DNA from: a virus
Reading direction: 5' to 3' (one strand)
DNA: 27,676 nucleotides
Virus record (IMG/VR): IMGVR_UViG_3300020438_000217
Span: 1-27,676 of that record
Part shown: positions 25,730 through 27,676 of the stretch, piece by piece
How the letters are laid out: each line of letters starts with the position of its first letter
Position numbering within the stretch: the stretch's first letter is position 1
Program-made: the position numbers and the translations under genes
The notes under the pieces: model-generated
Seen by the model: the letters and a program-made list of their open reading frames with translations, nothing else
Told to the model about the DNA's origin: nothing
Databases searched by the model: none

Positions 25730-25796
25730 AGATTTCAATTTCTATACATACTCTGTATGGCTTGTAAGCGATTCTTTATAATTTTTTAAGACCCAG

Positions 25797-25816
25797 ACCC
25801 CGAAAGGGGTTTTTTT
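25797..25816 (+). terminator. Rho-independent terminator of the structural gene block
   Basis: ACCCC (25797-25801), a GAAA tetraloop (25802-25805) and GGGGT (25806-25810) form a short GC stem followed by a run of T to 25816. It lies 68 bases after the adhesin stop and directly before the promoter at 25818, so it separates the late structural unit from the restriction-modification unit. Confidence 0.9.
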
Positions 25817-25848: not shown

Positions 25849-26529
25849 ATGAGTACTAGCGAACATCTAAGACAGACTCACACTGAATTGGGTGGTGGTA
25901 GAGGTATTTTTACTGAAGGTGCAAAGGTACTAGAAGGAAATCTTGAGCAACAAGTAAAGAAACTCATTCCTACACTAGATGAGTTGTATCCTAATATAGA
26001 GTTTCAATGGAAAAAGACTTTAAGGAAATCTGATATATCGCCTGAACTTGAATATACTCCACACGCAAAGGGATCTGGTGTTAAACCTGATGGTGGTATA
26101 TTATTTGCTGTAATTGGTGGTAAGAAGTATCCTATTCTAGTTTCTGAGGCAAAGAAACAAGGAACTAATGATGTAAGAATGTCTGAAGGTAAAAAGAAAC
26201 AAGGAAAAGGAAATGCAATCGAGAGAGCGTTCAAGAATTGGGCAGAGTTTCAGATTTACTTTGAGAACTATAGCTATTTTCCTTATGTAATATTTGCATA
26301 CGGTTGTGATTTTGAAGATGGTTCATCTATCAATGATAGGATGGATGCAATGACAAGATACAAACCACGCAACAAAGAGTATATCTTTCACCCTAAGCAA
26401 CTTGCAACAATCTATGTGCAAGAAAAGGCATTTACAAATGAGGAGATCTTTGATAGAATTAAAGATATATCTACAAAAGTTATTGATAGTATTAATATTG
26501 AAAATCTTAAGAGGAACTTGAATGTCTAA
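25849..26529 (+). CDS. EcoRI-family type II restriction endonuclease
   Basis: The 226-residue protein is colinear with EcoRI (277 residues) from memory. GIF near 19-21 and QVKKLIP...LYPNIEFQWKKTLRKSDI match the EcoRI N-terminal helices. VKPDGGI (78-84) and ILVSEAKKQG (96-105) supply the PD-(E/D)xK site D81, E100, K102 (EcoRI D91, E111, K113). GNAIER (121-126) equals the EcoRI/MunI/RsrI motif that reads the inner AATT. FPYVIFAYG and IYVQEKAFTNEEIFDRIKDIST match the C-terminal part. It is shorter in the segments corresponding to the EcoRI arms (between K102 and G121, and after residue 158). All catalytic residues are present, so it is probably active, with a target containing AATT. Its end overlaps an adenine methyltransferase gene by eight bases. 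Possible roles are exclusion of competing phages or host DNA breakdown. Confidence 0.88.
   Translation: MSTSEHLRQTHTELGGGRGIFTEGAKVLEGNLEQQVKKLIPTLDELYPNIEFQWKKTLRKSDISPELEYTPHAKGSGVKPDGGILFAVIGGKKYPILVSEAKKQGTNDVRMSEGKKKQGKGNAIERAFKNWAEFQIYFENYSYFPYVIFAYGCDFEDGSSINDRMDAMTRYKPRNKEYIFHPKQLATIYVQEKAFTNEEIFDRIKDISTKVIDSINIENLKRNLNV
26511..26514 (+). promoter_or_regulatory. Shine-Dalgarno GAGG inside the endonuclease gene
   Basis: AAGAGG, with GAGG at 26511-26514, lies seven bases before the methyltransferase ATG at 26522, inside the last codons of the endonuclease. This supports the start choice and efficient initiation on the methyltransferase independent of coupling. The endonuclease ATG has no comparable site. 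Confidence 0.6.
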
Positions 26530-27160
26530 GAAGAAAGGCAAGAACTTTAGTGCTAACAATGCAACTGGTAAGAGAAAGAAGTCTGATTTTTATGAGACTC
26601 CCTATACTCTTACTCGTAAGTTTTTAGATGTAGAATATTTTAATAAGAATAGTACTGTCTGTGAACCTGCTTGTGGTGGAGGTGCTATTACTAGAGTATT
26701 AAAAGAGCATTGGGAAGATGATAAAGTAACTGCTTATGACCAAGAAACTAACTTCTTATGGGAAACAGGTGAATATGATTACATTGTAACAAACCCACCA
26801 TTTTCTATTGCCTTTGAGTTTATTCAAAGGGCGAAATTGGTAGCAAAGAGTAAGTTTGCTTTTCTATTACCTTTGTCATATTTACATGGTAAGAAAAGAT
26901 TTGATGAGATATATTCTGACAGAACTTATGGATTAGAAAAGGTGTATGTATTCACTAGGTATCCTATGTTGGGTGAATCCTTGAGAGAGGATGGTAAGTA
27001 TAATACTGGTATGATGGTTTATGCGTGGTATGTCTGGACAAATGGGTATAGTGGATTACCTACAGTAGATTGGTTAGACAATAATGAGGATGTGTTGTCT
27101 AAGAAAGACAGTATAGAAATTGTCACAAAAGAGACTCCTTTGACTAAGATTCTGCTATAA
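26522..27160 (+). CDS. N6-adenine DNA methyltransferase (gamma-type motif order)
   Basis: The 212-residue SAM-dependent methyltransferase has, in order, motif X (SDFYETP, 21-27), motif I for SAM binding (CEPACGGGAI, 47-56), an acidic motif II residue (AYD, D73) and catalytic motif IV NPPF (91-94). The order X-I-IV is that of gamma-class N6-adenine enzymes. The C-terminal target-recognition part (about 120-212) is short, including GMMVYAWYVW. It overlaps the endonuclease stop by eight bases, so the two form an R-M pair in R-then-M order, as in the EcoRI system. It is clearly shorter than M.EcoRI (about 325 residues), and I do not claim direct orthology. It resembles compact phage adenine methylases and may have been paired secondarily. 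It probably protects phage DNA from the upstream enzyme. Confidence 0.85.
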   Translation: MSKKKGKNFSANNATGKRKKSDFYETPYTLTRKFLDVEYFNKNSTVCEPACGGGAITRVLKEHWEDDKVTAYDQETNFLWETGEYDYIVTNPPFSIAFEFIQRAKLVAKSKFAFLLPLSYLHGKKRFDEIYSDRTYGLEKVYVFTRYPMLGESLREDGKYNTGMMVYAWYVWTNGYSGLPTVDWLDNNEDVLSKKDSIEIVTKETPLTKILL

Positions 27161-27182: not shown

Positions 27183-27676
27183 ATGCCATTACGTCCTCAC
27201 CAACTTGATGCTCTGGATGCTATGGCAAAGTATGACAGGGGGCAAATCATCGTACCTACAGGCGGTGGTAAGACAATGTGTATGATTGAGGATGCTAAGA
27301 GAGGAGGCACTATTGTTGTGGTTGCTCCTCGTATTCTATTGGCAGAGCAGCTATCATCTGAGTTCCTTGAGGTTCTTGATGATGTATCTGTAATGCACGT
27401 ACACAGTGGTGAGACAGATCATTATTCTTCAACCAAAGTTGAGAATATTTACTGGTGGCACAAGCACACAAGAGGTAATAAGATTATATTTACTACCTAT
27501 CATTCACTTGATAAGGTCAAAAGATCTACCATTGATGTAGATACCATTTACTTTGATGAGGCACATAATAGTGTTCAACGAAACTTTTTCCCTGCTGTGG
27601 AACATTTTGCAACTAATTGGGCTAACAGGTGCTTTTTCTTTACTGCTACTCCTAAGCATAGTCTTACTCCTTTCAA
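27183..27676 (+). CDS. SF2 DEAH-box helicase, 3'-truncated
   Basis: The first 164 codons are present; the gene runs off the window. MPLRPHQLDAL is the usual opening of SF2 restriction-type helicases (RxxQ). PTGGGKT (about 26-32) is Walker A/motif I, VVVAPRILLAEQ is motif Ia, YFDEAHN (about 122-128) is motif II of DEAH type, and FFTATPK (about 153-159) is motif III. It has its own extended -10 promoter and follows the methyltransferase by 22 bases. It could be a replication or recombination helicase of the phage, or functionally tied to the R-M genes as in helicase-containing restriction systems. It lacks the N-terminal domain of T4 UvsW, so UvsW identity is not supported. Start: first ATG of the frame, directly before the conserved motif. 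Confidence 0.85.
   Translation, partial: MPLRPHQLDALDAMAKYDRGQIIVPTGGGKTMCMIEDAKRGGTIVVVAPRILLAEQLSSEFLEVLDDVSVMHVHSGETDHYSSTKVENIYWWHKHTRGNKIIFTTYHSLDKVKRSTIDVDTIYFDEAHNSVQRNFFPAVEHFATNWANRCFFFTATPKHSLTPF

Follow-up and report, generated by a model that had tools for sequence, protein, structure and literature searches.

We identified, in a marine cyanophage genome, two overlapping genes that we consider likely (probability roughly 0.7) to encode a Type II-like restriction-modification (R-M) pair, in which the nuclease would cut unmodified RAATTY and the methylase would protect the phage DNA. In the proposed mechanism, a PD-(D/E)XK nuclease of the EcoRI fold with trimmed DNA-embracing arms would cut DNA lacking the modification, at a degenerate EcoRI-type sequence for which R^AATTY is the likeliest candidate, and the overlapping N6-adenine methyltransferase would mark the same sites on phage DNA, such that replicating phage genomes would survive and unmodified DNA would be cut. 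At the level of sequence, this reading draws on family membership, on catalytic and recognition residues that are intact, on purifying selection, and on the two genes recurring side by side and as fusions.

The window, by which we mean the whole stretch of 27,676 nucleotides analysed, was 68-72% identical to Prochlorococcus phage P-SSM2 over long stretches in a nucleotide comparison. By this comparison its source is a P-SSM2-like T4-type cyanophage; the virus is marine and its hosts are Prochlorococcus-type cyanobacteria. The endonuclease gene (226 aa, 25849..26529) and the methyltransferase gene (212 aa, 26522..27160) lie on the plus strand and overlap by 8 nt (26522..26529), and short overlaps are common to most relatives. 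Between a tail gene and the pair is an intrinsic-terminator-like hairpin with a T-run (25795..25812, plus strand; fold z -2.2), which is suggestive only, because one such element was found against 0.5 expected by chance. A scan for sigma-70 promoters for the pair found fewer sites than in shuffled sequence. Downstream, a UvsW-like helicase gene (27183..27676, plus strand; phrog_16 DNA helicase, E=2.4e-36; ResIII) runs off the end of the window; it marks the genomic slot and is outside the pair. P-SSM2 has the helicase as well, but no pair of this kind is annotated ahead of it. In another contig (L006, 1-2160), the pair is located directly behind psbA- and psbD-like genes (identity judged by eye), in a cyanophage host-takeover region. 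The window also contains no CCGG, against 6 expected.

The nuclease matched the Pfam EcoRI family (PF02963) with 68.4 bits (E=6.5e-19; cut-off 22), and phmmer matched it to the EcoRI sequence in the PDB (E=1e-14); by these E-values the family match is far beyond chance. A search of NCBIfam gave no match for the nuclease. The catalytic residues D81 (26089-26091), E100 (26146-26148) and K102 (26152-26154), all on the plus strand, align with D91, E111 and K113 of EcoRI. The GNAIER motif (residues 121-126; 26209..26226, plus strand) corresponds to the segment with which EcoRI reads AATT. In an alignment of 28 phage homologues, D81, E100, K102, Q104, GNAIER 121-126, K129 and N130 did not vary, and they remained invariant across 36 phage and bacterial homologues. 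Modelling of the nuclease with AlphaFold2 gave a pLDDT of 83, and the best five PDB matches of this model in Foldseek were all EcoRI (E 6e-13 to 1e-15; TM by query length up to 0.73), while the next match had an E-value of only 0.03. The predicted structure thus has the EcoRI core fold. dN/dS among nuclease homologues was 0.06-0.19, indicating purifying selection. A chance reading frame was ruled out by the E-values, the fold and dN/dS, and identity as a homing endonuclease was not supported, the significant fold matches being to EcoRI only.

The nuclease differs from full-length EcoRI types in its arms. The inner arm segment, which lies between EAKKQ and GNAIER, is shorter by about 8 residues, and the outer arm segment by about 17; full-length arms are a feature of EcoRI itself and not a requirement for membership of the Pfam family. 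The second arginine of NRLDRL is replaced by alanine. The NRLDRL region helps EcoRI to read its outer G-C pair, and for the window nuclease this substitution is a lead. The nucleases of three other contigs (L003, 803-1540; L004; L011, 312-1061) contain an in-frame, helix-turn-helix-like insertion of about 28 residues exactly at the EcoRI inner-arm position.

The methylase matched phrog_799, annotated "DNA methyltransferase", with E=6.7e-43. Its motifs run from an N-terminal FYETP through PACGGG to NPPF, the catalytic motif IV (residues 91-94; 26792..26803, plus strand), in which N91, P92 and P93 are invariant and F94 nearly so in 33 relatives. The structural model (pLDDT 78) matched HsdM (2okc) and M.TaqI in Foldseek, with E-values of about 1e-7. 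Given the motif order and the HsdM/M.TaqI-like fold, we assign the methylase, a compact enzyme, to the gamma class, most likely modifying adenine at N6 rather than cytosine at N4. Membership of the M.EcoRI family was ruled out (PF13651, 13.3 bits against a cut-off of 26.4). The methylase is also under purifying selection (dN/dS 0.09-0.15). The preliminary description had proposed the two reading frames at these positions, a T4-like phage genome, an EcoRI relative with D81/E100/K102 and GNAIER intact and with shortened arms, and a compact methylase unlike M.EcoRI; profile searches, alignments, structure prediction and the nucleotide comparison together bore out these proposals.

The site of the nuclease was addressed through related phages. 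In a related clade (contigs L021-L035) the nuclease has no adjacent methylase, and a search of clade contigs, which are fragments, detected no methylase of the window type. RAATTY is absent from 171 kb of this clade against a Markov expectation of at least 37.8, itself an underestimate because the model was trained on the purged sequence, while YAATTR (143) and mixed NAATTN (240) are still present. Nuclease-free kin of the same family, found via a neighbouring gene, have about 1 RAATTY per kb. An unbiased scan of all 6-mers compared 190 kb of nuclease-bearing sequence with 153 kb of nuclease-free kin. Among the words missing with the nuclease, those commonest in kin were AAATTC, AAATTT and GAATTC, precisely the RAATTY set; RAATTY words numbered 0 against 154 in kin, a scaled expectation of 191. 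At aligned orthologous positions, 0/55 of the RAATTY sites of the kin were kept, against fractions of 0.06-0.47 for other 6-mers. The kin are only about 72% identical to the clade in shared DNA, and L228 is a weak close nuclease-free relative, with only 1.1 kb aligning to a nuclease-bearing contig. Five further short clade contigs, which end before the nuclease slot, also lack RAATTY. A single acquisition probably underlies the clade; its contigs therefore do not count as independent cases, and the purge is one event seen at many sites. Close relatives differ in the gene immediately preceding the methylase-less nuclease (HNH/HTH-type in L026, 5615-5995; an unknown 184-aa gene in L027, 5460-6014), and the next gene further upstream is DruA-like.

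In contigs carrying both nuclease and methylase (505 kb), RAATTY occurs 756 times against 849 expected, or about 1.5 per kb; the window, counted apart, has 25 against 38 expected. GAATTC is low, with 1 against 5.2 expected in the window and 84 against 138 in all nuclease-plus-methylase contigs. Near-expected RAATTY counts fit protected sites, since protected sites need not be avoided, and for the same reason the specificity of their nucleases is not readable from these contigs. With about 1.5 RAATTY sites per kb and no protection, the phage would not survive an active nuclease. The best reading is that self-protection is achieved either by the methylase or by purging the site from the phage genome. 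The purge suggests that the nuclease of the methylase-less clade is active and cuts RAATTY, and comparative genomics likewise points to nuclease activity, RAATTY specificity and methylase-based protection in the window pair. RAATTY is the probable site of the window nuclease; as this is transferred from homologues about 45% identical, specificity for the outer bases could differ. A minimal EcoRI-type R-M system with an AATT core had been suggested from the window sequence. Sequence, predicted fold, recurrent pairing, fused reading frames and site avoidance support such a system, and the avoidance in related phages refines the core to a probable RAATTY.

Which DNA the pair would attack, with superinfection exclusion or host genome breakdown as the roles put forward in the preliminary description, is a question separate from the R-M mechanism. 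We know of no use of T4's hydroxymethylcytosine by cyanophages. An R-M pair would directly explain how they could destroy host DNA and spare their own. We lean, by a modest degree, towards the host chromosome as the target. The pair might instead be a weapon against superinfecting phages or satellites, a less favoured option to which we give roughly one chance in three. Sequence-specific phage nucleases that act against satellites are known, as described for ICP1 (PMC8263062), and the R-M pair of phage NrS-3, confirmed in vitro, has been proposed to block foreign DNA (PMC10734518). However, RAATTY is not avoided in the nuclease-free kin, themselves plausible competitors, so there is no sign of strong selection on rivals.

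The methylase might also be an orphan anti-restriction enzyme, with the nuclease an independent neighbour (for example in host DNA breakdown) and no specificity shared between them. Methylases of this family do occur without the nuclease in phages of Campylobacter, Staphylococcus and Listeria, in other phages and in about 20 viral contigs, and since the family is so widespread, the specificity of the methylase need not match that of the nuclease. Against this, a window-type methylase lies directly downstream in 24/35 distinct viral nuclease genes, mostly with an overlap of 4-17 nt. The two proteins form a single reading frame of 417-437 aa in L045/L076 and in L057/L058, and the 5'-truncated L048 is likewise a nuclease-methylase single frame, giving three lineages with a fusion; an internal methylase start may be used in the fused frames. 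In addition, RAATTY is kept in phages with both genes and absent from those with the nuclease only, a contrast that would be difficult to account for if RAATTY were left unprotected in the phages with both genes. We therefore regard independent neighbours as unlikely.

EcoRI-family nucleases are also found beside other methylases. Eight contigs have a D12-type or D12-like neighbour (L036, L037, L303, L305, L309, L318, L321 and L322; Pfam-checked for L036, L037, L303, L318 and L322), and L314 and, by motif, L317 have one of the N6_N4 type. True EcoRI methylases are the partners in L307, a full-length EcoRI type (PF13651, Pfam-checked), and by motif in others, and the contigs concerned are possibly bacterial in origin. 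Such repeated association with unrelated methylases is to be expected of an R-M function. The preliminary description had held that complete R-M pairs are rare in tailed phages; this stands for isolates and fails for marine viral contigs, given the frequency of pairing above. Phage R-M pairs are already known. What looks new is the minimal EcoRI-fold version, together with the nuclease-methylase fusions and the purged version lacking a methylase: the literature searched, which mostly excluded subscription papers, gave no description of a minimal EcoRI-type pair in cyanophages, of the fusions or of the methylase-free purged clade.

The purge could in principle reflect a host restriction system of RAATTY specificity acting only on the purged clade. 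The clade also lacks, or nearly lacks, CTGCAG, GACGTC, CTCGAG and CTTAAG, which resembles host-driven avoidance. However, these four sites are absent or nearly absent both in the clade of L026 and in its nuclease-free kin (L228-L239), and being missing in both sets they represent a lineage or host effect that does not track the nuclease, whereas RAATTY tracks it exactly. The absence of the four sites suggests, in its own right, host restriction pressure on both groups. The lost motif also holds the AATT core expected of an EcoRI-family enzyme, and a second lineage, S-RIM2, has lost AATT together with an EcoRI-like gene of its own. We consider host restriction a quite improbable source of the purge.

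In that second lineage, a search with the nuclease of cyanophage S-CREM2, already annotated EcoRI in its record, gave homologues from 64 S-RIM2 genomes; those in the records listed are labelled hypothetical. The gene order in S-RIM2 is nuclease, one unknown gene, D12 methylase, helicase. AATT is the most depleted 4-mer of S-RIM2, with 56 occurrences in 49 kb against 342 expected (six-fold), the baseline being cyanophages without a hit to the nuclease (S-RIM8, 350; S-SM1, 293; ACG-2014b, 382), and the avoidance shows no preference for RAATTY. Contig L322 has 27 AATT against a Markov expectation of 74, while a comparison of site counts gave no clear avoidance in S-CREM2. The nucleases of S-RIM2 and L322 have an inner segment of just a few residues and lack the NRLDRL segment, which fits a four-base site. 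AATT is avoided in S-RIM2 and L322 despite the nearby D12 methylase, which, like the lack of strong avoidance in S-CREM2, counts against the R-M explanation of the window pair. We also observed that CCGG is absent from the S-RIM2, S-RIM8, S-SM1 and ACG-2014b regions (L273, L276-L278; 35-43 expected per 49 kb) and that S-SM1 has no GTAC against 143 expected. In S-CREM2 (L082, 1102-13563), the neighbour of the EcoRI-like gene is annotated as encoding a virion Cas9-like nuclease, and genes for a D12 methylase and a SAM hydrolase lie close by.

Finally, a selfish mobile cassette of no benefit to the phage, kept by post-segregational-like killing or homing, would suit the patchy distribution, the differing slots (psbA/psbD-like genes in L006, the helicase in the window) and the swapped neighbours (an HNH-like gene in L026, an unknown gene in L027), but purifying selection across divergent phages, with no homing-type insertion seen, makes it very improbable.

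Returning to the R-M reading, we put at even odds a broader series of marine phage EcoRI-fold nucleases in which the arms shrink as specificity relaxes, from GAATTC (277 aa) through RAATTY (about 225 aa) to AATT (about 179 aa), with protection by unrelated methylases or by complete purging of the site. A phage with no methylase and a genome purged of its nuclease's own site would offer a rare natural example of telling self from non-self through the absence of a sequence, and such purging would allow genomes to reveal recognition sequences. The reading is testable in S-RIM2, a relative cultured on Synechococcus WH7803.

Several known systems are close to the window pair. ApoI recognises R^AATTY, the same sequence as proposed for the window nuclease, and is likened to it by site alone and not by sequence. 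SWTG_00030 of S-RIM2 and gp11 of S-CREM2 are EcoRI-like nucleases of isolated cyanophages and lie near a D12 methyltransferase, the S-RIM2 gene beside a helicase; unlike the window nuclease, they are of a 172-189 aa type below Pfam detection. The phrog_799 methyltransferases of Campylobacter phage CP220, Staphylococcus phage SEP9 and Listeria phage LMTA belong to the family of the window methylase (33-47% identity), and the CPt10 and CP220 loci examined (L078, L079) have no EcoRI-like nuclease near theirs. Chlorovirus PBCV-1 encodes nucleases with adenine methylases and is under strong pressure to modify all of its own sites (PMC7248222); unlike the window pair, it is a system of a eukaryotic algal virus, with GATC and CATG sites and packaged nucleases. 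Nph3I of Nitratiruptor phage NrS-3 is a complete phage-borne Type II R-M system confirmed in vitro (PMC10734518), with a BglII-type nuclease, RGATCY as its site and a temperate phage as its carrier, in contrast to the EcoRI fold and T4-like cyanophage of the window. EcoRI itself (PF02963; PDB 1eri, 1ckq, 1qri) shares the fold, D/E/K triad, Q104, GNAIER and K129 of the window nuclease, and differs in length (277 aa against 226, with the inner arm about 8 and the outer about 17 residues shorter in the window nuclease) and in site, GAATTC against a probable RAATTY.
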